Positions 8,619-63,537 of a stretch of 64,000 bases of DNA are shown one piece after another. Both the position numbers and the translations under genes were made by a program. Within the stretch, counting starts at the first letter, position 1, and each line of letters starts with the position of its first letter. The notes below the pieces were generated by a model that did no database searches, had not been told where the DNA came from, and saw only the letters and a program-made list of their open reading frames with translations. Origin of the DNA: Salvelinus alpinus (taxonomy: Eukaryota; Chordata; Actinopteri; Salmoniformes; Salmonidae); assembly GCF_045679555.1 (NCBI RefSeq), contig NC_092092.1, positions 7,309,643 through 7,373,642 of the forward strand, in the 5' to 3' direction.

Positions 8619-8620
8619 TA

Positions 8621-16578: not shown

Positions 16579-19500
16579 ATGAGGAGTCAAAGGACACTTT
16601 CCGTGTTGCTTCTGTTGATGATGGGTAAGTACTTCATCCATTTTGTTTGATGCTGATTGTGCTACTATTTTAAATGTGAATGTCATTTGGCTGACCTTGA
16701 TCCCACCCTGTTGTTTCACAAGGTATGGTGACCACTGCGGTTCCTGGTGAGTTTACATTGTGTCCAATTCCACTTTTCAACTCTGACTGAATTATAGAAG
16801 ACTGAAAACATCATGTTGATACTTATAGATAACAGGAAACAAGCAGAGATCAGATCACTTCGTAGTGAATGAACTAGCACAGATAAATCAATTTACTTCC
16901 TTATTCTACAGAAAGAATGCATGGGAATGCAAGTTAACTTGCACACTTAAATTAATATTGCCACAATATCACTCGAGATGATCTGTGATTTAGAATTAAA
17001 GATTTTTGGAACATAACTGTTTTCATAGTGTTTTAGTGTAGTTTCTATACACACATTCCATGCATTGTTTAATTTAGAGAATTAGCTAATCTTTATCTAC
17101 TTTGTTGGTTAAAACCACATGATGCACATTAGATGATGTCAAAAGTGTTTGAATCGCTCTAGAAGTATTATCTTCAGTAAATACAATATATATGGCCTAA
17201 GTAGCCATGATTGCTAACATTACCTAGCCTTAGTCAGATGACTTATAAACAGTGGTGGAAAAAGTACCCAAATCATCATACTTGAGTAAAAGTAAAGATA
17301 CCTTAATAGAAAATGACTCAAGTAAAAGTGCAAGTCACCCAGTAAAATACATCTTGAGTAAAAGTCTAACAGTATTTGGTTTTAAATATACTTAAGTATC
17401 AAAAGTAAATGTAATTGCTAAAATATACTTAAGTATCAAAAGTATCACGAATAATTTTGTGATATTATATTAAAACCTCTTAAGGATCTGCGCCTTTTTA
17501 TCAATTTTCGCCTAAAATGACAAACCCAAATCTAACTGCCTGTAGCTCAGACCCTGAAGCAAGGATATGCATTTTCTTGGAAACACTTTGAAGTTTGTGG
17601 AGATGTGAAAGGAATGTAGGAGAATATAACACTTTAGATCTGGTAAAAGCTAATACAATGAAAAAACCAACAGTTCTTTTGTATTTTTTTGTACCATCAT
17701 CTTTGAAATGCAAGAGAAAGGCCATAATATATTATTCCAGCCCGGGTGCAATTTAGATTTTGGCCACTAGATGGCAGCAGTGTATGTGCAAAGTTTTAGA
17801 CTGATCCAATTAGCCATTGCATTTATGTATAAAAAATGCTGTATCAAGACTGCCCAAATGTGTCTAATTTGTTTATTTAACCTCCTGGCTAGATGATGAA
17901 TTTCGAGTGGATCACGAGCAGAATGGTTTTGGGGGTGCTTAGCACTTTCTCATTCAAACAACTAGCAAAAGTCTAAATGCTGAAACCCTGTTTTGTTATT
18001 ATGTAGCAGTTATAGTTTCTGTCTGGTTTATAATTACTATCAAAATGTCCCAAAATAATATACATCAACCAGTGGTTGCAGCATGGTACAACACAACACA
18101 TTGCTCTTAAAATGTCACAAAATAAGTTTAAAAATCAACTGGTGGTTGCCGCATGATACAACGTAACAAACAAGCGCTTAAATAAAAAAGGAAATCTCAT
18201 ATTTTGGGGTTACAGGGCTTTATACAGGAAGTGCTCGTGCTTGGTTTTCAACCTCTTTGTCTATTCCCTCCAGCAACTACTGCTGATGCAGCCATCACTT
18301 CAACGGTTGGCCATTCATCAGCCACTGGTGAGTTTACATTAAGTCCAATAAGTGATTTTCAACCCACTTCTCAATCCTCTCTGACTGACTGAATTGTAAC
18401 CATCTCTCATCTTAATCATATAGTATGTTATATATACAACCGTTCAAAACTTTGGGGTCAATTAGAAATGTCCTTGTTTTTGAAAGAAAAGCAATTTTTT
18501 TGTCCATTAAAATAACATTAAATTGATCAGAGATACAGTGTTGACATTGTTAATGTTGTAAATGACTATTCTAGCTGGAAACGGCAGATTTTTTAATGGA
18601 TATCTACATAGGTGTAACAGTATAACTTTAAACCGTCCCCTCGCCCCGACACGGGCGCGAACCAGGGACTCTCTGCACACATCAACAACTGACACCCACG
18701 AAGCGTCGTTACCCATCGCTCCACAAAAGCCGCGGCCCTTGCAGAGCAAGGTGCAACACTACTTCTAGGTTTCAGAGCAAGTGACGTAACTGATTGAAAC
18801 GCTAGTAGAGCGTACCCGCTAACTAGCTAGCCATTTCACATCCGTTACATAGGCGTACAGGGGCCCATTATCAGCAACCATCACTTCTGTGTTCCAATGG
18901 CACGTTGTGTTAGCTAATCCAAGTTTATCATTTTAAAAGGCTAACTGATCATTAGAAAGCACTTTTGCTATTATGTTAGCACAGCTGAAAACCGATGTTC
19001 TGGTTAAAGAAGCAATACAACTGTCCTTATTTAGACTATTTGAGTATCTGGAGCATCAGCATTTGTGGGTTCGATTACAGGCTCAAAATGGCCAGAAACA
19101 AAGAACTTTCTTCTGAAACTCATCAGTCTATTTTTGTTCTGAGAAATGAAGGCTATTCCATGTGAGAATTTGCGTCCCTCTGCAACTGGATCTTCGACAT
19201 CCTGACGGGTCACCCCTAGGTGGCAAGGGTAGGTAACAACACATCTGCCATGCTGACCGTCAACACAGGGGCCCCTCAGGGGTGCATGCTTAGTCCCCTC
19301 ATGTACTCCCAGTTCAGTGCATAGCCTCGCCCGACTCCAACACCATCATTAAGTTTGCTGATGACACGACGGTGCTAGGCCTGATCACTGACAATGATGA
19401 GACAGCCTATAGGGAGGAGGTCAGTGACCGGGCACTGTGGTGCCATGACAACATCCTCTCCCTCAATGTCAGCCAGACAAAGGAGCTGATCGTGGTCTAC

Positions 19501-22500
19501 AGGAAATGAAGGGCCGAGCATGCCCCCTGGGCTTTAGTGGAGCGGGTCAAGAACTTCAAGTTCCTCGGTGTCCCCATCACTAAGGATTTAACATGGTCCA
19601 GACACACCAAGACAGTCATGAAGAGGGCACGACAACAACTTTTCCTCCCCAGGAGACTGAAAATATTTGGCATGGGTCCCCCCAGATCCTCAAAAAGTTC
19701 TACAGCTGCACCATTGAGAGCATATTGACCGGTTGCATCACCGCCTGGTATGGCTAATGTTCGACATCTGACCGTAAGGCCCTACAGAGGGTAGTGCATA
19801 CGGCCCAGCACATCACTGGGGCCAAGCTTCCTGCCATCCAGGACCTAAATACTAGGCGTGTCCGAGGAAGGCCTTAAAACATTGGCAAAGACTCCAGCCA
19901 CCCAAGTCATAGACTGTTCTCTCTACTACCGCATGGCAAGCGGTACCTGAGCGCCAAGTCCAGGTCCAAAAGGCTCCTTAACAGCTTCTACCCCCAAGAC
20001 AAAAGACTCCTGAACAATTAATGAAATGGCCACCTGGACTATTTACATTTTACACTGCTGCTACTCGCTGTTTATTATCTATGCATAGTCACTTTATCCC
20101 TACCTACATGTACAAATTACCTCAGCTAACCTGTACCCAGCACATTGACTCGGTACCGGTACCCCCTGTATATAGTCTAGTTATTGTTAATTTATGATGT
20201 TATTTTTTAATTTTTTAAACTTTAGTTTATTTAGAAATATTTTCTTAACTCTATTTATTGAATGGCATTGTTGGTCAAGGCCTTGTAAGTAAGCAGGTAG
20301 CCTAGTGGTTAGAGCTTTGGGCTAGTAACCCAAAGGTTGCTGGATTGAATCCCTGAGCTGACAAGGTAAAAATCTGTCGCGTAACATGCATTTTTCTCTC
20401 CTTTACTTGACTCAAATGAGAAAGTATATATTTCGCAGTCGTTTTGCATATTGCGCCCTACTTTCTGACTCACCTGAACCCCGGACAAGAATTCCATCTG
20501 TGTGTGGGAATTCGGGAAACTCAGTACCGAGCCGCCCACTGTTGACATACTTCCAAAATGACAAAGTGCAAAGAACCTTTGAAGGTCTCAAAGGGTTCTT
20601 TGGATCAGTATGGTTCTACATAGAACCATCACCCTTCCTACAGAACCCTTGAGGAACCTTCCAAGTGCTAAACATGAGTTTCTGACATTGTATTTTCATC
20701 TAAAATCAGTTTGGCTGAGATCCCGGTGCAGATATCACACGATAGGTTTCCAATATAAATTGTTGATATAATACCAATGGCAAATGTGGAGTATTTAATT
20801 CCAATAATCTCTATTTTTATGTTAGTGTGTGGCATCTCTCCACTCAACAACAAAATAGTGGGAGGTGAAAATGCCCCTGCAGGAAGTTGGCCCTGGCAGG
20901 CAAGTCTCCAAACTTCTGACGGACATGTTTGCGGTGGGTCCCTCGTCAACAAGGTGTGGGTGATGTCTGCAGCCCACTGCTTCACCAGGTGAGTTAGCGT
21001 TAGATAACAGGTGCTTCTACACCTGCATTGCTTTCTGTTTGGGGTTTTAGGCTGGGTTTCTGTACAGCACTTCGAGATATTAGCTGATGTACGAAGGGCT
21101 ATATAAAATAAACTTGATTTGATTTGAGATACAGGGGACATAAAAGTTGTAATACAAATAGATAATTATGTCAGTTATTTGTGATGCAGCTGAGCGCAAC
21201 TCTTGAAATAAGTTTTCCAAAATGTAACTGTCCATTAATTCCATGTTAATCTTATATTTCATCACTTTGATCCATCTTAATTTAGTTACATTTTTCATTC
21301 CAACAAAAAGCTCAGACCCAAATGGTTGGAACATTAGCCTTGGTCGTCAGACCCTGGAGGGAATTAACCCCAACGAAGTGTCCAGAACTGTGGCTGAGAT
21401 CATTATACATCCAGATTACAACGAGTTCACAAAGGACAACGACATCGCTCTGCTCAAACTCTCCTCGCCGGTCAGCTTCACAAACTACATCCGCCCCGTC
21501 TGTCTGGCAGCAAATGATAGTGTTTTCAACAATGGTACTGATAGCTGGGTGACCGGCTGGGGTAACATCAATGAAGGAGGTGAGGACACATTCATGATCC
21601 ATTGTAGGAGATGTTGATGAGATTATGTTTTATGTGAAACAGTATCCCCAGTGGTCACAATGCAGGTGCACACGGAAAAAAATAGTTTCTTATTCTGATG
21701 GAAATTGACAACCTGATGAAAACTGTCCTGAAGTTGTTACCTCCCATTTTTAATCTCCCATCACACATCACTTTATTTCCTTCAGTTCCCCTCCCATCCC
21801 CCCAGGATCTGCAAGAAGTGGAGGTTACAGTTGTGGGGAACAGACAGTGTGACTGCCTCTATTGGGCCGGTTCAATCACAGACAACATGCTCTGTGCTGG
21901 TGATCTGGCAGGGGGCAAGGACTCGTGTCAGGTAAAGTTCACGCTAACCCATCTTGTTCTACTACAGGGCCCAGTTTTTCAAAAGTTATCGATTCGGATT
22001 TCGGCAAGCGGACAGGATTAAACGCATAGAAATAGAATGAATAGAACGGGCGTCCCCATTCAGGTCAATGATACGCCTGTTCTACTCAATATATTCATAT
22101 GCTTTTAATCCGATTGCAGAAATCTGATCAGATAAGTTTTGAAAAACTGGGCCCTGTTCCATTTCATTTCCTAGAGCCTTCTTTTAATGACCTTGCTCCA
22201 TCTTCTCAGGGTGACTCAGGAGGTCCACTGGTGATTCAACAGAACTCTGTCTGGGTCCAGTCTGGGGTTGTTAGTTGGGGTCAGGGCTGCGCTCGGCCTA
22301 ATCTCCCTGGGATCTACACCAGAGTGTCCAGTTACCAGTACTGGATCGACTCCCATATCAGGACCGACAAGCCAGGCTTTGTCCAATTTACCTCCAGTGG
22401 GGTAGATGCTGACAGCGATTACATCTGTTCTGATGTCCCAACAACTACTGTCGACCCCAACCCCTACCCCTCCACCTACTATTACCCTTACCCCTACCCT

Positions 22501-22617
22501 TACCCCTACCCTTACCCCTACCAACACCCCGACCCTTACCCCTACCCTTATACCCTTACCCTTACGAATCCATTTTTGATCATGGGCACAGTTTGTTCAG
22601 CTCCCTTTATTTGCTGA
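16579..22617 (+). CDS. Trypsin-like serine protease (S1A, prostasin/testisin-like), copy A, altered C-terminus
   Basis: Seven exons with GT-AG borders and consistent phases: 16579-16624, 16723-16746, 18274-18327, 20826-20988, 21311-21579, 21786-21931 and 22210-22617, giving 369 aa. Exon 1 encodes a signal peptide ([16 protein letters not shown]). Exons 2-3 encode a Thr/Ser-rich linker (residues 17-41). The propeptide Cys43 and the activation site NNK|IVGG (51/52) follow. Triad His92 (SAAHC), Asp140 (DNDIALL) and Ser237 (GDSGG). Asp231 in KDSCQ at the S1 base and Gly258/Gly268 predict cleavage after Arg/Lys. Sequons at Asn103, Asn164 and Asn170. A Tyr-Pro repeat follows Cys-containing YICSD. 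Compared with copies B-D, 8 extra nucleotides in this repeat shift the frame; the tail ends [17 protein letters not shown] and the hydrophobic anchor is lost. Probably secreted (inference). Exons 1-3 rest on splice logic and four-fold conservation, without transcript evidence. Confidence 0.85.
17250..17882. repeat. Two dispersed teleost repeats in intron 2 (unit A)
   Basis: 17250-17470 starts CAGTGGTGGAAAAAGTACCC and is rich in AAGTAAAAGT motifs, a widespread teleost DNA repeat. 17476-17882 starts CCTCTTAAGGATCTGCGCCT and is a common salmonid repeat that carries the CTCF-like motif. Neither has a gene. Confidence 0.6.
17764..17782. promoter_or_regulatory. CTCF-like motif in intron 2 (unit A)
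   Basis: CCACTAGATGGCAGCAGTG matches the core CTCF consensus (CCACYAGRTGGCRG). It lies inside a dispersed repeat. The counterparts in C and D are intact; in B a 24-bp deletion removes it. Confidence 0.55.
18435..19176 (+). mobile_element. Tc1-like 5' half in intron 3 (unit A)
   Basis: The left end (CAACCGTTCAAAACTTTGGG) and about 650 bp of leader are followed by a transposase start, [20 protein letters not shown], which hits a stop after NEGYSM. The rest is missing, replaced by LINE sequence at about 19177. The 18613-18849 element is inserted in it. Confidence 0.75.
18613..18849 (-). mobile_element. 237-bp TIR element with TAGG duplication (unit A)
   Basis: Begins TGTAAC and ends GTTACA, flanked by TAGG on both sides. 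Unit B has the uninterrupted site (CTACATAGGCGTAC). On the minus strand it contains GGTTCGCGCCC, a pol III B-box-like motif. Same family as 237-440. Confidence 0.8.
19177..20290 (+). pseudogene. Decayed LINE reverse transcriptase remnant in intron 3 (unit A)
   Basis: RT domain blocks are readable across frames: [17 protein letters not shown], then [20 protein letters not shown] (the FADD catalytic box), [15 protein letters not shown] and [14 protein letters not shown], followed by a 3' UTR ending at TTGTAAGTAAGC. Several stops and frameshifts make it non-functional. Rex1/CR1-like by eye. Confidence 0.75.
20293..20379 (+). mobile_element. 3'-truncated tRNA-derived SINE (unit A)
   Basis: An A-box-like TAGCCTAGTGG and a B-box-like GGATTGAATCC mark the tRNA-related head. 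The SINE stops at AAAATCTGTCG and joins CGTAACATGC directly. Unit B has the complete SINE (32208-32406), so this is a deletion endpoint. Confidence 0.75.
20569..20660. repeat. MITE fragment with AAGGGTTCTTTGG arms (unit A)
   Basis: GAACCTTTGAAGG, GGGTTCTTTGGATC and GGTTCTACATAGAACC are related to the palindromic MITE at 15875-16067. Located just upstream of exon 4. Confidence 0.5.
21010..21128. repeat. Dispersed repeat in intron 4 (unit A)
   Basis: GTGCTTCTACACCTGCATTG to ATAAACTTGATTTGATTTGA is a recurrent salmonid SINE/LINE-type end fragment. Present in all four genes. Confidence 0.5.
21964..22157. mobile_element. Hairpin MITE in intron 6 (unit A)
   Basis: ACAGGGCCCAGTTTTTCAAA at the left and its inverted copy at the right (one mismatch over about 27 bp) enclose further self-complementary sequence, making a 194-bp stem-loop element. 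It lies between exon 6 and the exon carrying the catalytic Ser, 52 bp before the acceptor. Confidence 0.75.
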
Positions 22618-23848
22618 GCACCTTGTTCATTCTGATGTTTCTTACCATTTAAATTCTTTCCGTGATGCAGTCAAGGGCAAGGTTTTATTGGCAGTCTGAG
22701 TGCAAGTGCTATTCGTTGGGGAGATGTATCTTTTAAAGTAATGGCTGGCGTGCTCTGGAAGAACGAGAGTTGGGAAGGAGGTATCCTATGGCTGCATATC
22801 CTATCTAGTATATTGTGTGTTCACTTTTCCCTGGGCACATCCGGCTGAGTGAGTGTTGTTTTCAATGGGCCTTACTGTTGTCTTGATTTATTTGTGAAGA
22901 TGGATAACCTGAAATATATTTACTTATTTATTAAAGGGGCAATATGGGATTCAAACCAACAGAGACCATGACACTTTTTTTGTAAAACGCTTAGGGATAG
23001 AGCTGAAGAAATGTATCTCTTAAATTCATAGACAGAGGTTTGGGTACAATGACTGTCTGATAGCATTAACAATGTTTTGTAAGCTTTACAATTTTTTACA
23101 ATTACATTGTTTACAAAAAACATAGTAAAACAAGCTTATATTTTGGCTTGTGTTGAAGTAGGACAGCACTAAGCTCATGAGACATTTTAAGTTACATTCT
23201 TCAAGAATTAATGGCTATATATCATTAAAGATGCACTTTAGTCTCATTTTCATCTCATTTATCACATGATTTATTTAACAAAAGTCATGACATGTCACAA
23301 GTGGGAGAGGCCTTTCCTCTTCTGTTCTCTATTGGTCCTCTAACCACTAATTTGCACAAAACATATATGTTATACCCTTAAGTGGGTGTACATTAATTGG
23401 GATAGATATTGTTTCAACAAGAACGTTTTTTTTTAAAGCTGGAGTGTGTCTAATTTAAAAGTAAAATAATGGTTGTACCGTTCCCAGATTGCCATTTTAA
23501 TATTTGAGAAATGACAAATCCTTTTGCTATGAAAGCTGTATAATAAAAATAAAAAATAAAATGTTCTTTATGGAGCGGCCTGCAGTGGTCTAGTGGTTAG
23601 TGCCACAGCCGACTGGATAAGAGCGTCTGCTAAATGACTAACATGTAAAACGTCTCCTGTCTTTCTTGTCTCTTCTTCTATCTTTCCTATCAATGGGTAA
23701 CACTATGCTTTAAATACACATATGAACCTTTCCTAAAGAAGGCACTGCATTGTGAAACTTTGGTGGAGGTTTACTCATTAAAATGTTGTGAACACATATA
23801 GAGTGTGCGACTTTATTCACATATTAGCCACTATTAAGTAGTTTATAA

Positions 23849-23883
<35 letters not shown>

Positions 23884-24076
23884 AGTAGTAAATAAGGCCT
23901 TTATTATGTCGTATATCAATATATTCTACCTTAATTAAGGGTTCAATTATTAATAAATAAGTCATGTGTTACTGGCCAGTCCTCAATAACATAATTCTAA
24001 TTATTATTAGGCAGTAAATCAATATCATCCGGAGAATATTGAGATTATTGATTTCAGCTTTTATATATTATCATAT
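22618..24076. other. 3' flank of gene A up to the unit boundary
   Basis: No gene. ATTAAA occurs near 22929 and could serve as a polyadenylation signal. A short SINE-like repeat (23571-23640) joins a tRNA-like TGGTCTAGTGG box to the L2-type tail GGATAAGAGCGTCTGCTAAA. A (TA)n tract of 28 nt is at 23856-23883. Confidence 0.6.
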
Positions 24077-24150
24077 CCATGTAGTACAGGGTCAGTGCCA
24101 GTACCATAGCTACAATGTGCAGGGAGACTGGAGTGGCTAAACTGTATGTA

Positions 24151-25415
24151 CAGTTGAAGTCGGAAGTTTACATACACCTTAGCCAAATACATTTAAACTC
24201 AGTTTTTAACAATTCCTGACATTTGATCCTAGTAAAAATTCCCTGTCTTAGGTCAGTTAGGATCACCACTTTATTTTAAGAATGTGAAATTTCAGAATAA
24301 TAGTAGAGAGAATGATTTATTTCAGCTTTTACTTCTTTCATCACATTCCCAGTGGGTCAGAAGTTTACATACACACAATTAGTATTTGGTAGCATTGCCC
24401 TTTAAATTGTTTAACTTGGGTCAAACATTTCAGGTTGCCTTCCACAAGCTTCCCACAATAAGTTGGGTGAATTGTGACCCATTCCTCCTGACAGAGCTGG
24501 TGTAACTGAGTCAGGTTTGTAGGCCTCCTTGCTCGCACACGCTTTTTCAGTTCTGCCCACTAATTCAGATCAGGGCTTTGTGATGGCCACTCCAATACCT
24601 TGACTTTGTTGTCCATAAGCCATTTTGCCACAACTTTGGAAGTATGCTTGGGGTCATTGTCCATTTGGAATACCCATTTGCGACCAAGCTTTAACTTCCT
24701 GACTGATGTCTTGATGTTTCTTCAATTTATCCACATAATTTTCTTTCCTCATGATGCCATCTATTTTGTGAAGTGCACCAGTCCCTCCTGCAGCAAAGCA
24801 CCCCACAACATGATGCTGCCACCCTTGTGCTTCATGGTTGGGATGGTGTTCTTCGGCTTGCAAGCCTCCCCCTTTTTCCTTCAAACATAATGATGGCCAA
24901 ACAGTTCTATTTTTGTTTCATCAGACCAGAGGACATTTCTCCAAAAAGTATGATCTTTGTCCCCATGTGCAGTTGCAAATTGTAGTCTGGCTTTTTTTAT
25001 GGCGGTTTTGGAGCAGTTGATTCTTCCTTGCTGAGCAGCCTTTCAGGTTATGTCGATTTAGGACTCGTTTTACTGTGGATATAGATACTTTTATACCTGT
25101 TTCCTCCAGCATCTTCACAAGGTCCTTTGCTGCTGTTCTGGGATTGATTTGCACTTTTCGTACCAAAGTACATTCATCTCTAGGAGACAGAACGCATCTC
25201 GTTCCTGAGCGGTATGACAGCTATGTGGTCCCATGGTGTTTATACTTGCATACTATTGTTTGTACAGATGAACATGGTACCTTCAGGCATTTGGAAATTG
25301 ATCTCAAGGATGAAACAGACTTGTGGAGGTCTACAATTGTTTTTCTAAGGTCTTGACTGATTTCTTTATGATTTTCTGATGATGTCAAGCAAAGAGGCAC
25401 TGAGTTTGAAGGTAG
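24151..25415 (-). mobile_element. Sleeping Beauty-like Tc1 remnant (unit B)
   Basis: The left IR/DR is complete (outer repeat at 24151, inner repeat near 24354). A minus-strand transposase follows, with [14 protein letters not shown]-like, VKHGGGSIM-like and VRKVQINPRTAAKDLVKMLE (near 25166) segments broken by frameshifts. The right end is missing: the sequence switches to LINE at about 25415. Confidence 0.8.
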
Positions 25416-25750
25416 ACCTTACAATACAAGAGCAACAATAAAATAACAATAAGGAGGCTATACAGGGGTACCGATTCAATGTGCGGGGGTACAGGTTAGT
25501 CGAGGTAATTGAGGTAATACTGTACATATAGGTAGGGGTAAAGTGACTATGCATAGATAAAAAAACAGCGAGTAGCAGCAGCGTAAAAAAAGGGGGGGGG
25601 GGGGGGGGGTCAATGCAAATAGTCCGGGTAACCATCTGATCAGCTCTTCTTCAGTCTTGGCCTGGGGGGAGGAAGCTGTTTAGAAGTCTTTTGAACATAG
25701 ACTTGGCGCTGCGGTTACAAGCGAACATGCTGATCCTTTGTACTCCCACA
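25416..25750 (-). repeat. Reversed LINE 3' end with poly(G) tract (unit B)
   Basis: Reverse complement of LINE 3' sequence like that at about 20040-20180. It includes an 18-G run at 25592-25609 preceded by an A-run. Confidence 0.65.
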
Positions 25751-25855
25751 CCTCTAATTTACCTCTTGTTATGCAACAGCTGTGTTTCAGTTTGTATTCT
25801 GGTTCAGAAGAATAATCTCCAACATGCTCTACGAGATCCACTGTCACGCATCACG

Positions 25856-26278
25856 TACCGTCTAATCCATCGTTCTTCTTCTTTTTTTCCAAAGCTGCCA
25901 TCCAAGAATGTCAAGATTCTTAACATGAACAAACAATGTATTCAGTATATTATACATGTAAAGTGGGTAAAACATTATGTAAACATTTTTAAGTGACCAG
26001 TGTTCAATGACTAGAATACAGTATACACATACTGTATATGACTAAGACCAATATAGTACAAAAACAAATATATGTACTACAGCCAAGTAAATAAGTTGTA
26101 AAAGTAGCTACGATGACTAAGAATACATTGTTTGTTCATGTTAAGAATCTTGACATTCATGAATGACAGCTATGACAACAACAACAAAATGATGGATTGC
26201 ACTGCATTGTTGAAGACAGTTCTGCAAGCAAGAATTTCACTCTGCCTTGTGCACCTGACCAATAAACTTTGATTTGAT
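25856..26278. repeat. Hairpin repeat plus LINE-like 3' terminus (unit B)
   Basis: Inverted arms around CCAAGAATGTCAAGATTCTT (near 25909) and its complement near 26150, ending in CAATAAACTTTGATTTGAT. Confidence 0.65.
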
Positions 26279-26448
26279 ATACACTCAACACCATATGTAT
26301 TTTTATAGTGAAGCTAAGATGTTTAATTTGCCTCTATACTCCAGCATTTTCTTTTCTCGATTTAAGAGCAAATGTTTTATATGAAGCGACCGTAAGCTTT
26401 TATTTTAGGGTATTTTGTAGAGGTGGGCACCAATATTGATATTCTTAT

Positions 26449-27868
26449 GATATTGAAAGCCACCCTTTGCCTTGATGACAGCTTTGCACACTCTTGGCAT
26501 TCTCTCAACCAGCTTCGTGAGGTAGTCACCTGGAATACATTTCAATAAACAGGTGTGCGTTGTTCAAAGTTAATTTGTGGAATTTCTTTCCTTCCTAATG
26601 CGTTTGAGCCAATCAGTTGTGTTGTGACAAGGTAGGGGTGGTATACAGAAGATAGCCCTATTTGGTAAAAGACCAAGTCCATATTATGGAAAGAACAGCT
26701 CAAATAAGCAAAGAGAAATGACAGTCAATCAGTACTTTAAGACATGAAGATCAGTCAATTCGGAAAATTTCAAGAACTTTGAAAGTTTCTTCAAGTGCCG
26801 TTGCAAAAACCATCAGGGGCTATAATGAAACTGTCTCTCATGACGACCGCCACAGGAAAGGAAGACCCAGAGCTTCTTTTGCTGCAGAAGACAAGTTCAT
26901 TAGAGTTACCAGCCTCAGAAATTGCAGCCCAAATAAATGCTTCACAGAGTTCAAGTTACAGACACATCTCAACATCAACTGTTCAGAGGAGACTGTGTGA
27001 ATCAGTCCTTCATGGTCGAATTGCAGCAAAGAAACCACTACTAAAGGACAACAATAATAAGAAGAGACTTACTTGGGCCAGGAAACATGAGCAAAGGACA
27101 TTAGACCGGTGGAAATCTGTTCTTTGGTCTGGTGAGTCCAAATTTGAGATTTTTGGTTCCAACTACCGTGTCTGTGTGAGATGCAGAGTAGGTGAACAGA
27201 TGATCTCTGCATGTGTGGTTCCCACCGTGAAGCATGGAGGAGGAGGGGTGATGGTGTGGGGGTGCTTTGCTGGTGACACCGTCTGTGATTTATTTAGAAT
27301 TCAAGGCACACTTAACCAGCATGTCTACCACAGCATTCTGAAGCGATACGCCATCCTCTCTGGTTTGCACTTAGTGGGGACAATCATTTGTTTTTCAACA
27401 GGACAATGACCCAACACAGCTCCAGGCTGTGTAAGGGCTATTTGACCAAGAAGGAGAGTGATGGAGTACTGCATCAGATGACCTGACCTCCACAATCACC
27501 CAACCTCGACCCAATTGAGATGGTTTGGGATGAGTTGGACCACAGAGTGAAGGAAAAGCAGTCAACAAGTGCTCAGCAATTTGTGGGAACTCCTTCAAGA
27601 CTGTTGGAAAAGCATTCCAGGTGAAGCTGGTTGAGAGAATGCCAAGAGTGTACAAAGCTGTCACCAAGGCAAAGGGTAGCTACTTTGAAGAATCTAAAAT
27701 ATAAAATACTTTTTGATTTGTTTAACACCTTTTTGGGTTACTACATGATTCCATATGTGATATTTCATATTTTTGATGCCTTCAATATTATTCTACAATG
27801 TAGAAAATAGTAAAAATAAAGACAAACCTTTGAGTGAGTAGGTGTGTCCAAACGTTTGACTGGTAGTG
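26449..27868 (+). mobile_element. Tc1-like remnant (unit B)
   Basis: Same truncated start and intact right end as the unit A copy, with [17 protein letters not shown] better preserved. The transposase is still broken by frameshift and stop codons after CFSTGQ. Confidence 0.8.
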
Positions 27869-28029
27869 TATTTGAGCATATCAAGATATTGGTTTATTCT
27901 TACAGTTAATCTACACTATTCTGCATTTTATAAAATGCATACATTACTGCATGAACAAAACCCTGTCACAGACCCTTAACTTAGCATAGCACCTTTTTTT
28001 CCTGGAGAATGTATCTAGAATCTAAACGT

Positions 28030-28222
28030 GTTCTTCGGCTGTCCCCATAGGAGAACCCTTTGAAGAACCCTTTTTGGTTCCAGGTAGAACCCTTTTGGGT
28101 TCCATGTAGAACCCTTTCCCGCAGAGAACTCTACATGTAACCCAAAAATGGTTCTACCTGGAACAAAAAACGGTTGTACCTAGACCCCAAAAAGTGTTCT
28201 CCTATGGGGACACTCGAAGAAC
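28030..28222. mobile_element. Palindromic MITE (unit B)
   Basis: Same hairpin element as 15875-16067 with few substitutions. Confidence 0.7.
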
Positions 28223-28504
28223 CATTTTGGAACCCTTTTTTCTAAGAGTGTACCTAATTGCCCTGCTGATGGCCCATCAACGGTGGGAGGTGTATTCCAA
28301 CTGGTTAGGTAGGTATTTTCTACCAGAACATTCAGAGACATACTGTATGCCTAGTTCCAACTATCCGGATAAAAGAAAGAACCAGAGAAACAGGATAGCT
28401 ATTCTTAGATACAACATATAATAGTGTGGGTGCACTTGTCACAACGACAGTACATGTCATAGAGATCATTCGTTGTTGTCATTGACCAGCCCCATTGTCT
28501 ACAG

Positions 28505-39743: not shown

Positions 39744-39775
<32 letters not shown>

Positions 39776-51895: not shown

Positions 51896-51927
<32 letters not shown>

Positions 51928-52119
51928 GTAGTAAATAAGGCCTTTATTATGTCGTATATCAATATATTCTACCTTAATTAAGGGTTCAATTATTAATAAA
52001 TAAGTCATGTGTTACTGGCCAGTCCTCAATAACATAATTCTAATTATTATTAGGCAGTAAATCAATATCATCCGGAGAATATTGAGATTATTGATTTCAG
52101 CTTTTATATATTATCATAT
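50702..52119. other. 3' flank of gene C
   Basis: No gene. B-like sequence (AAATTATTTCCATGATG after the stop). SINE-like repeat at about 51618-51687 and (TA)12 at 51903-51926. Confidence 0.6.
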
Positions 52120-52193
52120 CCATGTAGTACAGGGTCAGTGCCAGTACCATAGCTACAATGTGCAGGGAGACTGGAGTGGCTAAACTGTATGTA

Positions 52194-53458
52194 CAGTTGA
52201 AGTCGGAAGTTTACATACACCTTAGCCAAATACATTTAAACTCAGTTTTTAACAATTCCTGACATTTGATCCTAGTAAAAATTCCCTGTCTTAGGTCAGT
52301 TAGGATCACCACTTTATTTTAAGAATGTGAAATTTCAGAATAATAGTAGAGAGAATGATTTATTTCAGCTTTTACTTCTTTCATCACATTCCCAGTGGGT
52401 CAGAAGTTTACATACACACAATTAGTATTTGGTAGCATTGCCCTTTAAATTGTTTAACTTGGGTCAAACATTTCAGGTTGCCTTCCACAAGCTTCCCACA
52501 ATAAGTTGGGTGAATTGTGACCCATTCCTCCTGACAGAGCTGGTGTAACTGAGTCAGGTTTGTAGGCCTCCTTGCTAGCACACGCTTTTTCAGTTCTGCC
52601 CACTAATTCAGATCAGGGCTTTGTGATGGCCACTCCAATACCTTGACTTTGTTGTCCATAAGCCATTTTGCCACAACTTTGGAAGTATGCTTGGGGTCAT
52701 TGTCCATTTGGAATACCCATTTGCGACCAAGCTTTAACTTCCTGACTGATGTCTTGATGTTTCTTCAATTTATCCACATCATTTTCTTTCCTCATGATGC
52801 CATCTATTTTGTGAAGTGCACCAGTCCCTCCTGCAGCAAAGCACCCCACAACATGATGCTGCCACCCTTGTGCTTCATGGTTGGGATGGTGTTCTTCGGC
52901 TTGCAAGCCTCCCCCTTTTTCCTTCAAACATAATGATGGCCAAACAGTTCTATTTTTGTTTCATCAGACCAGAGGACATTTCTCCAAAAAGTATGATCTT
53001 TGTCCCCATGTGCAGTTGCAAATTGTAGTCTGGCTTTTTTTATGGCGGTTTTGGAGCAGTTGATTCTTCCTTGCTGAGCAGCCTTTCAGGTTATGTCGAT
53101 TTAGGACTCGTTTTACTGTGGATATAGATACTTTTATACCTGTTTCCTCCAGCATCTTCACAAGGTCCTTTGCTGCTGTTCTGGGATTGATTTGCACTTT
53201 TCGTACCAAAGTACATTCATCTCTAGGAGACAGAACGCATCTCGTTCCTGAGCGGTATGACAGCTATGTGGTCCCATGGTGTTTATACTTGCATACTATT
53301 GTTTGTACAGATGAACATGGTACCTTCAGGCATTTGGAAATTGATCTCAAGGATGAAACAGACTTGTGGAGGTCTACAATTGTTTTTCTAAGGTCTTGAC
53401 TGATTTCTTTATGATTTTCTGATGATGTCAAGCAAAGAGGCACTGAGTTTGAAGGTAG
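52194..53458 (-). mobile_element. Sleeping Beauty-like Tc1 remnant (unit D)
   Basis: As the unit C copy: left IR/DR, broken transposase, no right end. Confidence 0.8.
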
Positions 53459-53790
53459 ACCTTACAATACAAGAGCAACAATAAAATAACAATAAGGAGG
53501 CTATACAGGGGTACCGATTCAATGTGCGGGGGTACAGGTTAGTCGAGGTAATTGAGGTAATACTGTACATATAGGTAGGGGTAAAGTGACTATGCATAGA
53601 TAAAAAAACAGCGAGTAGCAGCAGCGTAAAAAAGGGGGGGGGGGGGGGGTCAATGCAAATAGTCCGGGTAACCATCTGATCAGCTCTTCTGCAGTCTTGG
53701 CCTGGGGGGAGGAAGCTGTTTAGAAGTCTTTTGAACATAGACTTGGCGCTGCGGTTACAAGCGAACATGCTGATCCTTTGTACTCCCACA
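53459..53790 (-). repeat. Reversed LINE 3' end with poly(G) tract (unit D)
   Basis: As unit C, with a 16-G run at 53634-53649. Confidence 0.65.
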
Positions 53791-53895
53791 CCTCTAATTT
53801 ACCTCTTGTTATGCAACAGCTGTGTTTCAGTTTGTATTCTGGTTCAGAAGAATAATCTCCAACATGCTCTACGAGATCCACTGTCACGCATCACG

Positions 53896-54319
53896 TACCG
53901 TCTAATCCATCGTTCTTCTTCTTTTTTTCCAAAGCTGCCATCCAAGAATGTCAAGATTCTTAACATGAACAAACAATGTATTCAGTATATTATACATGTA
54001 ATGTGGGTAAAACATTATGTAAACATTTTTAAGTGACCAGTGTTCAATGACTAGAATACAGTATACACATACTGTATATGACTAAGACCAATATAGTACA
54101 AAAACAAATATATGTACTACAGCCAAGTAAATAAGTTGTAAAAGTAGCTACGATGACTAAGAATACATTGTTTGTTCATGTTAAGAATCTTGACATTCAT
54201 GAATGACAGCTATGACAACAACAACAAAATGATGGATTGCACTGCATTGTTGAAGACAGTTCTGCAAGCAAGAATTTCACTCTGCCTTGTGCACCTGACC
54301 AATAAACTTTGATTTGATA
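53896..54319. repeat. Hairpin repeat plus LINE-like 3' terminus (unit D)
   Basis: As 25856-26278. Confidence 0.65.
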
Positions 54320-54586
54320 TACACTCAACACCATATGTATTTTTATAGTGAAGCTAAGATGTTTAATTTGCCTCTATACTCCAGCATTTTTTTTTCTCGA
54401 TTTAAGAGCAAATGTTTTATATGAAGCGACCGTAGAGAATGTAAGCTTTTATTTTAGGGTATTTTGTAGAGGTGGGCACCAATATTGATATTCTTATGAT
54501 ATTGAAAGCCACCCTTTGCCTTGATGACAGCTTTGCACACTCTTGGCATTCTCTCAACCAGCTTCGTGAGGTAGTCACCTGGAATA

Positions 54587-55263
54587 CAGTAATCCCTCGT
54601 TTATCGCGGGGGTTACGTTCCGAAAATGACCCGCGATAAGTGAAATCCGCGAAATAGAAAACTTCTTTTTTTTTTACAATTAGCAACTATTACATGTATA
54701 CAAATACAGTGACTCACGTGTAGGCCGTTTCACTGCTCTTCAGACTGGGCCGCTGCATCCTGACTGCGCTCTGCAGTGTTCTCTTCTTCTGAAGCCCGCG
54801 GTGCAGGTGTGTTTGTTCGGGAGAAGAGCATAGTGATAGGCAGCTGTTGTCGCTCTTTTTTCTTCTTTGCAAAAAGATCCTTGTACACCGACATGCCACC
54901 ATCGATTACGTTGGAGAACTGTAATGAACGGCTCGTCAAAGGGTCCCATTCCTCAGCTACTCGCTTAAGTTCAGTGGCCATTCGCACCATGGTTGCTAAG
55001 CGACCAAGCGTTAGTCCTTCCTTCCTTCCTGGCCAACTTAATGTAAATTTGCCAAGCTGTTTTATGTACGTACACATAACTGCACGAGACGACAAAATGA
55101 TAGCACAATTCGTAGCATGTTTTGATACAAGAAGCGGGAGTGAGTTTTTAGCGAATCAGAATGCAGAGCACAATGCACCAAAAAAAAATAAAAAATGCAT
55201 TATGAAAATCCGCGAAATAGCGAATCCGCGATAAGTGAACCGCGAAGTGGCGAGGGATCACTG
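54587..55263 (-). mobile_element. pogo/Tigger-like element (677 bp), internally deleted, unit D only
   Basis: Ends CAGTAATCCCTCGTTTATCG and the inverted GGCGAGGGATCACTG, with TA on each side (54585-54586, 55264-55265). Subterminal CCGCGATAAGTGAA repeats occur in both ends. Unit C shows the empty site. The interior encodes only the C-terminal end of a transposase on the minus strand. Confidence 0.8.
54730..55095 (-). pseudogene. C-terminal fragment of Tigger-like transposase (121 aa)
   Basis: The open frame includes FSNVIDGGMSVYKDLFAKKK, then KERQQLPITM and SRTNTPAPRASEEE. This resembles the basic and acidic tail that follows the DDE domain of vertebrate pogo/Tigger (TIGD-related) transposases. 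No catalytic residues are present, so the element would depend on a partner transposase. Family recognition is from memory. Confidence 0.55.
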
Positions 55264-56757
55264 TACATTTCAATAAACAGGTGTGCGTTGTTCAAAGTTA
55301 ATTTGTGGAATTTCTTTCCTTCCTAATGCGTTCGAGCCAATCAGTTGTGTTGTGACAAGGTAGGGGTGGTATACAGAAGATAGCCCTATTTGGTAAAAGA
55401 CCAAGTCCATATTATGGAAAGAACAGCTCAAATAAGCAAAGAGAAATGACAGTCAATCAGTACTTTAAGACATGAAGATCAGTCAATTCGGAAAATTTCA
55501 AGAACTTTGAAAGTTTCTTCAAGTGCCGTTGCAAAAACCATCAGGGGCTATAATGAAACTGTCTCTCATGAGGACCGCCACAGGAAAGGAAGACCCAGAG
55601 CTTCCTCTGCTGCAGAAGACAAGTTCATTAGAGTTACCAGCCTCAGAAATTGCAGCCCAAATAAATGCTTCACAGAGTTCAAGTTACAGACACATCTCAA
55701 CATCAACTGTTCAGAGGAGACTGTGTGAATCAGTCCTTCATGGTCGAATTGCAGCAAAGAAACCACTACTAAAGGACAACAATAATAAGAAGAGACTTAC
55801 TTGGGCCAGGAAACATGAGCAAAGGACATTAGACCGGTGGAAATCTGTTCTTTGGTCTGGTGAGTCCAAATTTGAGATTTTTGGTTCCAACTACCGTGTC
55901 TGTGTGAGATGCAGAGTAGGTGAACAGATGATCTCTGCATGTGTGGTTCCCACCGTGAAGCATGGAGGAGGAGGGGTGATGGTGTGGGGGTGCCTTGCTG
56001 GTGACACCGTCTGTGATTTATTTAGAATTCAAGGCACACTTAACCAGCATGTCTACCACAGCATTCTGAAGCGATACGCCATCCTCTCTGGTTTGCACTT
56101 AGTGGGGACAATCATTTGTTTTTCAACAGGACAATGACCCAACACAGCTCCAGGCTGTGTAAGGGCTATTTGACCAAGAAGGAGCGTGATGGAGTACTGC
56201 ATCAGATGACCTGACCTCCACAATCACCCAACCTCGACCCAATTGAGATGGTTTGGGATGAGTTGGACCACAGAGTGAAGGAAAAGCAGTCAACAAGTGC
56301 TCAGCAATTTGTGGGAACTCCTTCAAGACTGTTGGAAAAGCATTCCAGGTGAAGCTGGTTGAGAGAATGCCAAGAGTGTACAAAGCTGTCACCAAGGCAA
56401 AGGGTAGCTACTTTGAAGAATCTAAAATCTAAAATACTTTTTGATTTGTTTAACACCTTTTTGGGTTACTACATGATTCCATATGTGATATTTCATATTT
56501 TTGATGCCTTCAATATTATTCTACAATGTAGAAAATAGTAAAAATAAAGACAAACCTTTGAGTGAGTAGGTGTGTCCAAACGTTTGACTGGTAGTGTATT
56601 TGAGCATATCAAGATATTGGTTTATTCTTACAGTTAATCTACACTATTCTGCATTTTATAAAATGCATACATTACTGCATGAACAAAACCCTGTCACAGA
56701 CCCTTAACTTAGCATAGCACCTTTTTTTCCTGGAGAATGTATCTAGAATCTAAACGT

Positions 56758-56950
56758 GTTCTTCGGCTGTCCCCATAGGAGAACCCTTTGAAGAACCCTT
56801 TTTGGTTCCAGGTAGAACCCTTTTGGGTTCCATGTAGAACCCTTTCCCGCAGAGAACTCTACATGTAACCCAAAAATGGTTCTACCTGGAACAAAAAACG
56901 GTTGTACCTAGACCCCAAAAAGTGTTCTCCTATGGGGACACTCGAAGAAC
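56758..56950. mobile_element. Palindromic MITE (unit D)
   Basis: Same hairpin element as 28030-28222. Confidence 0.7.
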
Positions 56951-57232
56951 CATTTTGGAACCCTTTTTTCTAAGAGTGTACCTAATTGCCCTGCTGATGG
57001 CCCATCAACGGTGGGAGGTGTATTCCAACTGGTTAGGTAGGTATTTTCTACCAGAACATTCAGAGACATACTGTATGCCTAGTTCCAACTATCCGGATAA
57101 AAGAAAGAACCAGAGAAACAGGATAGCTATTCTTAGATACAACATATAATAGTGTGGGTGCACTTGTCACAACGACAGTACATGTCATAGAGATCATTCG
57201 TTGTTGTCATTGACCAGCCCCATTGTCTACAG

Positions 57233-57240
57233 TAAATAAG
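57233..57240 (+). promoter_or_regulatory. TATA-like box of protease gene D
   Basis: TAAATAAG, 228 bp upstream of the predicted ATG. Confidence 0.4.
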
Positions 57241-57460
57241 AGTCGTACATGTATAGGGCCAACCCAACAGAGCTACACAGAAGAAAGGTTGAATGCACAG
57301 ATACAGGTGAGCTCGTCTAACATATTTGTGAATGAAGCCAGTTTTGAAGAAGGGGATAATGATATTCGTGGGTATGACGATAATGATAATCATGATGATA
57401 AACATAATGATAAACATGATAATCATGTTATGATAATCATGTTATAAGGAGCTTCTGACA

Positions 57461-60400
57461 ATGAGGAGTCAAAGGACGCTTTCCGTGTTGCTTCTGTTGA
57501 TGATGGGTAAGTACTTCATCCATTTTGTTTGATGCTGATTGTGCTACTATTTTAAATGTGAATGTCATTTGGCTGACCTTGATTCCACCCTGTTGTTTCA
57601 CAAGGTATGGTGACCACTGCGGTTCCTGGTGAGTTTACATTGTGTCCAATTCCACTTTTCAACTCTGACTGAATTATAGAAGACTGAAACCATCATGTTG
57701 ATACTTATAGATAACAGGAAACAAGCAGAGATCAGATCACTTTGTAGTGAATGAACTAGCACAGATAAATCAATTTACTTCCTTATTCAACAGAAAGAAT
57801 GCATGGGAATGCAAGTTAACTTGCACACTTAAATTTAATTAATATTGCCACAATATCACTCGAGATGATCTGTGATTTAGAATTAAAGATTTTTGGAACA
57901 TAACTGTTTTCATAGTGTTTTAGTGTAGATTCTATACACACATTCCATACATTGTTTAATTTAGAGAATTAGCTAATCTTTATCTACTTTGTTGGTTAAA
58001 ACCACATGATGCACATTAGATGATGTCAAAAGTGTTTGAATCGCTCTAGAAGTATTATCTTCAGTAAATACAATATATATGGCCTAAGTAGCCATGATTG
58101 CTAACATTACCTAGCCTTAGTCAGATGACTTATAAACAGTGGTGGAAAAAGTACCCAAATCATCATACTTGAGTAAAAGTAAAGATACCTTAATAGAAAA
58201 TGACTCAAGTAAAAGTGCAAGTCACCCAGTAAAATACTTCTTGAGTAAAAGTCTAACAGTATTTGGTTTTAAATATACTTAAGTATCAAAAGTAAATGTA
58301 ATTGCTAAAATATACTTAAGTATCAAAAGTATCACGAATAATTTTGTGATATTATATTAAAACCTCTTAAGGATCTGCGCCTTTTTATCAATTTTCGCCT
58401 AAAATGACAAACCCAAATCTAACTGCCTGTAGCTCAGACCCTGAAGCAAGGATATGCATTTTCTTGGAAACACTTTGAAGTTTGTGGAGATGTGAAAGGA
58501 ATGTAGGAGAATATAACACTTTAGATCTGGTAAAAGCTAATACAATGAAAAAACCAACAGTTCTTTTGTATTTTTTTGTACCATCATCTTTGAAATGCAA
58601 GAGAAAGGCCATAATATATTATTCCAGCCCGGGTTCAATTTAGATTTTGGCCACTAGATGGCAGCAGTGTATGTGCAAAGTTTTAGACTGATCCAATTAG
58701 CCATTGCATTTATGTATAAAAAATGCTGTATCAAGACTGCCCAAATGTGTCTAATTTGTTTATTTAACCTCCTGGCTAGATGATGAATTTCGAGTGGATC
58801 ACGAGCAGAATGGTTTTGGGGGTGCTTAGCACTTTCTCATTCAAACAACTAGCAAAAGTCTAAATGCTGAAACCCTGTTTTGTTATTATGTAGCAGTTAT
58901 AGTTTCTGTCTGGTTTATAATTACTATCAAAATGTCCCAAAATAATATACATCAACCAGTGGTTGCAGCATGGTACAACACAACACATTGCTCTTAAAAT
59001 GTCACAAAATAAGTTTAAAAATCAACTGGTGGTTGCCGCATGATACAACGTAACAAACAAGCGCTTAAATAAAAAAGGAAATCTCATATTTTGGGGTTAC
59101 AGGGCTTTATACAGGAAGTGCTCGTGCTTGGTTTTCAACCTCTTTGTCTATTCCCTCCAGCAACTACTGCTGATGCAGCCATCACTTCAACGGTTGGCCA
59201 TTCATCAGCCACTGGTGAGTTTACATTAAGTCCAATAAGTGATTTTCAACCCACTTCTCAATCCTCTCTGACTGACTGAATTGTAACCATCTCTCATCTT
59301 AATCATATAGTATGTTATATATACAACCGTTCAAAACTTTGGGGTCAATTAGAAATGTCCTTGTTTTTGAAAGAAAAGCAATTTTTTTGTCCATTAAAAT
59401 AACATTAAATTGATCAGAGATACAGTGTTGACATTGTTAATGTTGTAAATGACTATTCTAGCTGGAAACGGCAGATTTTTTAATGGATATCTACATAGGT
59501 GTAACAGTATAACTTTAAACCGTCCCCTCGCCCCGACACGGGCGCGAACCAGGGACTCTCTGCACACATCAACAACTGACACCCACGAAGCGTCGTTACC
59601 CATCGCTCCACAAAAGCCGCGGCCCTTGCAGAGCAAGGTGCAACACTACTTCTAGGTTTCAGAGCAAGTGACGTAACTGATTGAAACGCTAGTAGAGCGT
59701 ACCCGCTAACTAGCTAGCCATTTCACATCCGTTACATAGGCGTACAGGGGCCCATTATCAGCAACCATCACTTCTGTGTTCCAATGGCACGTTGTGTTAG
59801 CTAATCCAAGTTTATCATTTTAAAAGGCTAACTGATCATTAGAAAGCACTTTTGCTATTATGTTAGCACAGCTGAAAACCGATGTTCTGGTTAAAGAAGC
59901 AATACAACTGTCCTTATTTAGACTATTTGAGTATCTGGAGCATCAGCATTTGTGGGTTCGATTACAGGCTCAAAATGGCCAGAAACAAAGAACTTTCTTC
60001 TGAAACTCATCAGTCTATTTTTGTTCTGAGAAATGAAGGCTATTCCATGTGAGAATTTGCGTCCCTCTGCAACTGGATCTTCGACATCCTGACGGGTCAC
60101 CCCTAGGTGGCAAGGGTAGGTAACAACACATCTGCCATGCTGACCGTCAACACAGGGGCCCCTCAGGGGTGCATGCTTAGTCCCCTCATGTACTCCCAGT
60201 TCAGTGCATAGCCTCGCCCGACTCCAACACCATCATTAAGTTTGCTGATGACACGACGGTGCTAGGTCTGATCACTGACAATGATGAGACAGCCTATAGG
60301 GAGGAGGTCAGTGACCGGGCACTGTGGTGCCATGACAACATCCTCTCCCTCAATGTCAGCCAGACAAAGGAGCTGATCGTGGTCTACAGGAAATGAAGGG

Positions 60401-63400
60401 CCGAGCATGCCCCCTGGGCTTTAGTGGAGCGGGTCAAGAACTTCAAGTTCCTCGGTGTCCCCATCACTAAGGATTTAACATGGTCCAGACACACCAAGAC
60501 AGTCATGAAGAGGGCACGACAACAACTTTTCCTCCCCAGGAGACTGAAAATATTTGGCATGGGTCCCCCCAGATCCTCAAAAAGTTCTACAGCTGCACCA
60601 TTGAGAGCATATTGACCGGTTGCATCACCGCCTGGTATGGCTAATGTTCGACATCTGACCGTAAGGCCCTACAGAGGGTAGTGCATACGGCCCAGCACAT
60701 CACTGGGGCCAAGCTTCCTGCCATCCAGGACCTAAATACTAGGCGTGTCCGAGGAAGGCCTTAAAACATTGGCAAAGACTCCAGCCACCCAAGTCATAGA
60801 CTGTTCTCTCTACTACCGCATGGCAAGCGGTACCTGAGCGCCAAGTCCAGGTCCAAAAGGCTCCTTAACAGCTTCTACCCCCAAGACAAAAGACTCCTGA
60901 ACAATTAATGAAATGGCCACCTGGACTATTTACATTTTACACTGCTGCTACTCGCTGTTTATTATCTATGCATAGTCACTTTATCCCTACCTACATGTAC
61001 AAATTACCTCAGCTAACCTGTACCCAGCACATTGACTCGGTACCGGTACCCCCTGTATATAGTCTAGTTATTGTTAATTTATGATGTTATTTTTTAATTT
61101 TTTAAACTTTAGTTTATTTAGAAATATTTTCTTAACTCTATTTATTGAATGGCATTGTTGGTCAAGGCCTTGTAAGTAAGCAGGTAGCCTAGTGGTTAGA
61201 GCTTTGGGCTAGTAACCCAAAGGTTGCTGGATTGAATCCCTGAGCTGACAAGGTAAAAATCTGTCGCGTAACATGCATTTTTCTCTCCTTTACTTGACTC
61301 AAATGAGAAAGTATATATTTCGCAGTCGTTTTGCATATTGCGCCCTACTTTCTGACTCACCTGAACCCCGGACAAGAATTCCATCTGTGTGTGGGAATTC
61401 GGGAAACTCAGTACCGAGCCGCCCACTGTTGACATACTTCCAAAATGACAAAGTGCAAAGAACCTTTGAAGGTCTCAAAGGGTTCTTTGGATCAGTATGG
61501 TTCTACATAGAACCATCACCCTTCCTACAGAACCCTTGAGGAACCTTCCAAGTGCTAAACATGAGTTTCTGACATTGTATTTTCATCTAAAATCAGTTTG
61601 GCTGAGATCCCGGTGCAGATATCACACGATAGGTTTCCAATATAAATTGTTGATATAATACCAATGGCAAATGTGGAGTATTTAATTCCAATAATCTCTA
61701 TTTTTATGTTAGTGTGTGGCATCTCTCCACTCAACAACAAAATAGTGGGAGGTGAAAATGCCCCTGCAGGAAGTTGGCCCTGGCAGGCAAGTCTCCAAAC
61801 TTCTGACGGACATGTTTGCGGTGGGTCCCTCGTCAACAAGGTGTGGGTGATGTCTGCAGCCCACTGCTTCACCAGGTGAGTTAGCGTTAGATAACAGGTG
61901 CTTCTACACCTGCATTGCTTTCTGTTTGGGGTTTTAGGCTGGGTTTCTGTACAGCACTTCGAGATATTAGCTGATGTACGAAGGGCTATATAAAATAAAC
62001 TTGATTTGATTTGAGATACAGGGGACATAAAAGTTGTAATACAAATAGATAATTATGTCAGTTATTTGTGATGCAGCTGAGCGCAACTCTTGAAATAAGT
62101 TTTCCAAAATGTAACTGTCCATTAATTCCATGTTAATCTTATATTTCATCACTTTGATCCATCTTAATTTAGTTACATTTTTCATTCCAACAAAAAGCTC
62201 AGACCCAAATGGTTGGAACATTAGCCTTGGTCGTCAGACCCTGGAGGGAATTAACCCCAACGAAGTGTCCAGAACTGTGGCTGAGATCATTATACATCCA
62301 GATTACAACGAGTTCACAAAGGACAACGACATTGCTCTGCTCAAACTCTCCTCGCCGGTCAACTTCACAAACTACATCCGCCCCGTCTGTCTGGCAGCAA
62401 ATGATAGTGTTTTCAACAATGGTACTGATAGCTGGGTGACCGGCTGGGGTAACATCAATGAAGGAGGTGAGGACACATTCATGATCCATTGTAGGAGATG
62501 TTGATGAGATTATGTTTTATGTGAAACAGTATCCCCAGTGGTCACAATGCAGGTGCACACGGAAAAAAATAGTTTCTTATTCTGATGGAAATTGACAACC
62601 TGATGAAAACTGTCCTGAAGTTGTTACCTCCCATTTTTAATCTCCCATCACACATCACTTTATTTCCTTCAGTTCCCCTCTCATCCCCCCAGGATCTGCA
62701 AGAAGTGGAGGTTACAGTAGTGGGGAACAGACAGTGTGAATGCCTCAATGGGGCCGGCTCAATCACAGACAACATGCTCTGTGCTGGTGATCTGGCAGGG
62801 GGCAAGGACTCGTGTCAGGTAAAGTTCACGCTAACCCATCTTGTTCTACTACAGGGCCCAGTTTTTCAAAAGTTATCGATTCGGATTTCGGCAAGCGGAC
62901 AGGATTAAACGCATAGAAATAGAATGAATAGAACGGGCGTCCCCATTCAGGTCAATGATACGCCTGTTCTACTCATTATATTTATATGCTTTTAATCCGA
63001 TTGCCGAAATCTGATCAGATAAGTTTGGAAAAACTGGGCCCTGTTCCATTTCATTTCCTAGAGCCTTCTTTTAATGACCTTGCTCCATCTTCTCAGGGTG
63101 ACTCAGGAGGTCCACTGGTGATTCAACAGAACTCTGTCTGGGTCCAGTCTGGGGTTGTTAGTTGGGGTCAGGGCTGCGCTCGGCCCAATCTCCCTGGGAA
63201 CTACACCAGAGTGTCCAGTTACCAGTACTGGATCGACTCCCATATCAGGACCGACAAGCCAGGCTTTGTCCAATTTACCTCCAGTGGGGTAGATGCTGAC
63301 AGCGATTACATCTGTTCTCATGGCCCAACAACTACTGTCGACCACAACCCCTACCCCTCCACCTACTATTACCCCTACCCTTACCCCTACCCTTACCCCT

Positions 63401-63537
63401 ACCCTTACCCCTACCAACACCCCGACCCTTACCAATACCCTTACCCTTACGAATCCATTTTTGATCATGGGCACAGTTTGTTCAGCTCCCTTTATTTGCT
63501 GAGCACCTTGTTCATTCTGATGTTTCTTACCATTTAA
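57461..63537 (+). CDS. Trypsin-like serine protease, copy D, extra glycosylation sequons and hydrophobic anchor
   Basis: Exons 57461-57506, 57605-57628, 59161-59214, 61713-61875, 62198-62466, 62673-62818 and 63097-63537 give 380 aa. Signal peptide, linker, activation site and triad (His92/Asp140/Ser237, S1 Asp231) are as in copy C. Differences start in exon 5: Ser151 becomes Asn, creating NFT; loop residues 207-215 read CECLNGAGS; Ile269 becomes Asn in the PG-x-YTR motif, creating NYT beside the S1 pocket; the post-domain segment reads [15 protein letters not shown]. The tail has seven Tyr-Pro repeats instead of six, then ESIFDHGHS and the same [15 protein letters not shown] end. The frame is open throughout. 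Likely a membrane-anchored trypsin-like protease with altered surface or pocket properties (inference). Confidence 0.87.
58137..58767. repeat. Two dispersed teleost repeats in intron 2 (unit D)
   Basis: As the unit C copy. Confidence 0.6.
58651..58669. promoter_or_regulatory. CTCF-like motif in intron 2 (unit D)
   Basis: CCACTAGATGGCAGCAGTG, identical to units A and C. Confidence 0.55.
59324..60063 (+). mobile_element. Tc1-like 5' half in intron 3 (unit D)
   Basis: As 46494-47233. Confidence 0.75.
59500..59736 (-). mobile_element. 237-bp TIR element with TAGG duplication (unit D)
   Basis: Same position and sequence as 46670-46906. Confidence 0.8.
60064..61177 (+). pseudogene. Decayed LINE reverse transcriptase remnant (unit D)
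   Basis: As 47234-48347. Confidence 0.75.
61180..61266 (+). mobile_element. 3'-truncated tRNA-derived SINE (unit D)
   Basis: Same deletion junction as units A and C. Confidence 0.75.
61456..61547. repeat. MITE fragment (unit D)
   Basis: As 20569-20660. Confidence 0.5.
61897..62015. repeat. Dispersed repeat in intron 4 (unit D)
   Basis: As 21010-21128. Confidence 0.5.
62851..63044. mobile_element. Hairpin MITE in intron 6 (unit D)
   Basis: As 21964-22157, with a few unit D-specific substitutions. Confidence 0.75.

Follow-up and report, generated by a model that had tools for sequence, protein, structure and literature searches.

A tandem array of prostasin-like protease genes

The window analysed here, the whole 64,000-nucleotide stretch at positions 7309643-7373642 of NC_092092.1 in the 2.37-Gb, 928-contig genome assembly of Salvelinus alpinus, carries a trypsin-family gene in four direct copies. 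An earlier note on this DNA had described four such copies, and they are borne out both by a comparison of the window with itself and by gene models of seven exons each, all on the plus strand. Copy 1 (16579..22617) has its coding exons at 16579-16624, 16723-16746, 18274-18327, 20826-20988, 21311-21579, 21786-21931 and 22210-22617 and encodes 369 amino acids with a shifted C-terminal frame. Copy 2 (28733..38548) encodes 378 amino acids and contains a 17-bp satellite within intron 3, copy 3 (44631..50701) also encodes 378 amino acids, and copy 4 (57461..63537) encodes 380 and carries the exchange Ile269Asn. The range 16579..63537 given for the array ends on its first and last coding bases. Nucleotide and protein searches over 184 kb yielded no further copy, whether intact or degenerate; the one odd protein match, at 30372-30482, is a read-through of the exon 3 region in copy 2 and was discarded as an extra copy.

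Delimited by the junctions described below, the repeat units (all plus strand) comprise 6910..25427 (unit 1, 18,518 bp), 25428..41318 (unit 2, 15,891 bp), 41319..53470 (unit 3, 12,152 bp) and 53471..64000, continuing beyond the window to approximately 66213 (unit 4, 12,743 bp in total). The units, previously put at 12-20 kb, thereby measure 18.5, 15.9, 12.2 and 12.7 kb. The units are indeed rich in mobile elements, with Tc1-type transposase frames in the units and reverse-transcriptase and endonuclease frames in unit 1; six of the ten frames scanned had a Pfam match.

Several features are private to single units. A TA-flanked Tc1-type element (7010-8618) is inserted in the left-edge repeat, and its transposase frame (7234-8298, minus strand, 355 aa; HTH_SB, HTH_Tnp_Tc3_2 and DDE_3) is uninterrupted. 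A block at 9469-14290 is present in unit 1 only, through either insertion or deletion, and contains long adjoining LINE frames on the minus strand for a reverse transcriptase (9942-11978) and an endonuclease (11985-13415); a stretch 92% similar to this block lies to the right, at window coordinates 86298-89876. The satellite in intron 3 is found in copy 2 only and consists of 176 copies of the consensus CCTACATACTCTATATA at 32803-35817, a region whose two strands differ strongly in composition (GC skew -0.86 over 34001-36000). Unit 4 harbours a private, TA-flanked element of about 675 bp (54588-55264) with inverted ends CAGTAATCCCTCG...CGAGGGATCACTG, the 141-aa frame of which gave no match in Pfam.

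All exon borders of the four copies follow the GT-AG rule, and each copy features the K|IVGG activation site, the catalytic residues His (AAHC), Asp (DNDIALL) and Ser (GDSGG) and the S1 Asp (KDSCQGDSGG), as the earlier note had read them. The protein of copy 3 matches the Trypsin profile of Pfam (PF00089) over its full length (positions 1-220 of 220, 3.3e-73), so that the designation ‘trypsin-like’ is correct at the family level; the nearest solved relative is prostasin, which provides the top three PDB sequences (3e0n, 3gyl and 3dfj) among the best 60 of 560 matched, followed by about equal relatives. Judged by this match to solved structures, the gene product would be a prostasin-like S1A protease. 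Elsewhere in the genome there are at least 179 trypsin-family exon matches, several of them in clusters.

The encoded protein consists of a hydrophobic leader, a Thr-rich stretch encoded by exon 3, the catalytic domain and a Tyr-Pro stalk encoded by a minisatellite, followed in copies 2-4 by a hydrophobic C-terminal end that resembles a GPI signal in its hydropathy and points to a putative GPI anchor. Prostasin (PRSS8) is described as GPI-anchored in PMC3652837. The array protein has in common with it an S1A catalytic domain that includes the S1 Asp (the alignment spans residues 52-296) and a C-terminal tail with the look of a GPI signal; the Thr-rich exon 3 segment and the Tyr-Pro stalk are extra to the array protein. 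Searches for salmonid or teleost prostasin in a limited literature collection gave no paper, a result that applies to this collection. Note that all four copies have, immediately 5′ of exon 4, a methionine codon in a strong context for initiation (20773, 36675, 48830 and 61660); initiation at this position would yield a second hydrophobic leader (ACCAATGGCA...) without exons 1-3, and either this start or the one that uses exons 1-3 is possible.

Differences among the four copies

The four copies had been called intact throughout. This holds for their open frames, catalytic triads and splice borders but not for the tail of copy 1, which is out of frame, or for position 269 of copy 4. In copy 1, exon 7 exceeds that of copies 2 and 3 by 8 bp and that of copy 4 by 2 bp. 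It contains the coding minisatellite (22454..22565, plus strand; 112 bp in copy 1, rows of 104 bp in copies 2-4), which varies in length from copy to copy (by 8 and 6 bp) and determines in which frame the C-terminal tail is read. Because of the 8 extra bp in its minisatellite, copy 1 has the hydrophobic tail sequence of copies 2-4, which it retains letter for letter (22566..22649, plus strand), in another frame, and its protein has a different C-terminal end. This replacement tail keeps a moderate hydrophobicity, with a mean hydropathy over 15 residues of 1.75 compared to 2.39.

Copy 4 differs by Ser151Asn, Pro189Ser, Tyr211Asn, Ile269Asn, the last of these in the catalytic domain, and by three further exchanges in the stalk. 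Residue 269 is position 227 in chymotrypsin numbering and occupies a conserved hydrophobic place, and its exchange creates an N-glycosylation sequon (Asn-Tyr-Thr) in copy 4. A further accumulation of differences is located at residues 208-214, which carry four of the twelve nonsynonymous variable codons, including Trp/Arg/Gly at 212. The permutation P value of this cluster is 0.006 for a window picked post hoc and 0.028 if all variable codons are considered. Alignment to prostasin identifies these residues as the 170-loop beside the active site; it is shorter and variable in the array protein compared to prostasin, and residues 211, 212 and 214 are among its variable positions.

Taken from the sequence, the copies probably encode near-redundant ectoproteases of trypsin specificity. 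Copies 2 and 3 look sound, the protein of copy 1 is probably unanchored or mis-anchored, and Ile269Asn may compromise copy 4. One could imagine that the array is splitting a single surface protease into forms that differ in location and substrate preference, with copy 1 released by the frame slip in the minisatellite and other differences residing in the loop variants (Trp/Arg/Gly 212, Tyr/Asn 211, Gly/Ser 214), and that the minisatellite, being prone to slippage, would toggle the product from an anchored to a secreted form and back; we regard this as an unlikely, speculative scenario.

Founding and homogenisation of the array

A string search on the plus strand found the same 26-mer starting at exactly 25416, 41307 and 53459 (the first occurrence being 25416..25441), and a second junction, represented by a 22-mer, is common to the three inner borders at 26440, 42338 and 54489. 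The left flank of the array, a LINE-like repeat from 6910 onwards, and the right flank, a Tc1-like repeat up to 66213, each match the junction, and both contain AATACA. The flanks are otherwise unrelated, and the microhomology at the single shared junction thus amounts to 6 bp. Since the same joined sequence is present three times, the array was probably founded by one event. The unequal lengths of the units might speak for four independent events, either insertions or duplications, each with breakpoints of its own; in view of the identical junction at all three borders this is extremely improbable. Founding by recombination between long shared repeats is not preferred either, because the flanks match at the break over AATACA only.

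The edges of the array, the parts least able to exchange, are more diverged than most of its interior. On the left, segment E0 (8635..9468, plus strand) differs by 3.5% (29-30 of 838-847 positions) from its homologues at 25612-26448, 41501-42346 and 53652-54497, and the right edge differs by 4.0% (35 of 885 positions). From these edge counts the last bin, beside the break (14 of 123), was dropped. In the interior most comparisons show 0-2.2% difference, and copies 3 and 4 share an identical run of 7,069 bp. The founding therefore appears to predate the homogenisation and to be older than one would judge from how alike the genes are. The expansion had been considered recent, a view that agrees with the interior and with the long identity of copies 3 and 4 but not with the edges, from which the founding looks older.

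Between the edges the units are related in a polar manner, as assessed at two-state ungapped alignment columns (columns with gaps or three states were dropped). On the 5′ side (14291-17150), 49 sites separate units 2-4 from unit 1 and none separates units 1-3 from unit 4. On the 3′ side (21301-24269) the respective numbers are 7 and 21, with 12 further sites pairing units 2 and 3 against 1 and 4, and in the last 1.2 kb they are 0 and 48 (Fisher P = 3e-13 for the contrast, with region borders set after inspection of the data). The inner units thus resemble unit 4 in their 5′ parts and unit 1 in their 3′ parts, which is the pattern that unequal crossing-over yields. The middle block (17151-21300) departs from this simple polarity: here 81 of 84 sites separate unit 2 from the nearly identical units 1, 3 and 4, a sign of further conversion.

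It has to be considered that the copy number of four comes from one assembly and that the 7,069-bp identical run of copies 3 and 4 is of the type that can be misassembled. The additional units could in part be haplotype copies or mis-joined repeats, and the very high identity, with up to 7,069 bp free of differences, would be in agreement with such an artefact. However, the window contains no N, and the sole N run within 184 kb (100 bp) is located about 2.5 kb to the left of the window and hence outside the array. The units moreover possess private features, namely the Tc1 insertion at 7010-8618, the block at 9469-14290, the satellite of unit 2 and the 675-bp element of unit 4, and both the diverged edges and a polarity consistent with recombination argue for genuine units. 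We therefore give an assembly artefact a low probability.

With good confidence, we consider one founding duplication at a microhomology, followed by non-allelic recombination, the best explanation of the array. At the outset there would have been one copy of the gene, encoding a secreted, prostasin-like (S1A) protease of trypsin type in which a Thr-rich spacer lies towards the N-terminus and a GPI-type tail at the C-terminus. One tandem duplication would then have joined the right Tc1-like repeat (at about 66213) to the left LINE-like repeat (at about 6910) at AATACA; the junction itself is present in the sequence, and a replication or end-joining route presumably produced it. Subsequent mispairing of units would allow for unequal crossing-over and gene conversion, which would raise the count up to four and homogenise the interior. 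The homogenisation pattern is observed, and the recombination events underlying it are what we infer. The private insertions into units would have come later. The 5′ flank is repeated in every unit, and all four gene copies could therefore be transcribed.

Selection on the copies and comparison with known arrays

The open frames in all copies had been attributed either to selection or to a very recent origin. That selection for more product or for functional diversification keeps the four copies open could be argued from the absence of any stop or splice loss, from the post hoc cluster of four nonsynonymous variable codons within the seven codons 208-214 and from a pairwise dN/dS that stays below 1 for every one of the six pairs (0.46-0.92 over 320 codons, the minisatellite and tail codons past 320 being left out). 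The comparison of dN/dS between copies, which had been suggested as a check, does come out below 1 throughout, yet each value rests on 3 to 15 changes. Furthermore, 13 of the 19 exonic changes are nonsynonymous (0.68), compared to 0.72 expected in a neutral simulation, and 31% of the neutral runs with 19 exonic changes (substitutions only) remained without stop, start or splice loss. The tail frame is lost in copy 1, a core residue is substituted in copy 4, and exons are more divergent than introns 4-6 in all six pairs. Against our reading stand the dN/dS values and two further contrasts: exon divergence is lower than that of introns 1-3 whenever copy 2 is one of the pair (three pairs), and lower than that of sequence outside the gene in five of six pairs, with inflated outside counts for copy 4; the mosaic structure of the units confounds such comparisons of exons with noncoding sequence. 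Selection was rejected as the cause of the open frames, which are weak evidence of it, and we hold this explanation to be unlikely. The very recent origin offered as the alternative is sufficient. Selection as such is neither demonstrated nor excluded, and weak constraint is possible.

A comparable history has been described for the stickleback MYH3C locus, where, according to PMC12776057, the array was founded by a single tandem duplication with 4-8 bp of microhomology and then underwent non-allelic recombination, the units measure about 17.6 kb and copy number differs between populations. Both arrays show microhomology, a single junction common to the units and inner copies that are right-like in the 5′ and left-like in the 3′ part. 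They differ in the gene and in that population copy-number variation is described there, compared to one assembly here; the interior of the present array is more homogenised and its units contain private mobile elements. The CUP1 arrays of yeast (PMC4232551) are likewise tandem gene arrays whose founding and amplification mechanisms were read from junctions, in another organism and with another gene and scale. Teleosts, and zebrafish most of all, commonly have tandem duplicates of recent origin (PMC3464592). Given the three signs shared with MYH3C, the frequency of tandem duplicates in teleosts and the trypsin exon clusters elsewhere in the genome, the kind of array is already known: it is an ordinary gene array, and its mode of origin has, in MYH3C (PMC12776057), a published precedent.

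The locus represents a clean, readable example, set in a fish genome rich in transposable elements, of how a tandem array begins and later becomes homogenised. The minisatellite that sets the frame of a putative membrane-anchor signal is the one feature deserving a specialist's attention. Near-identity and open frames in arrays of this kind are not to be taken as selection.
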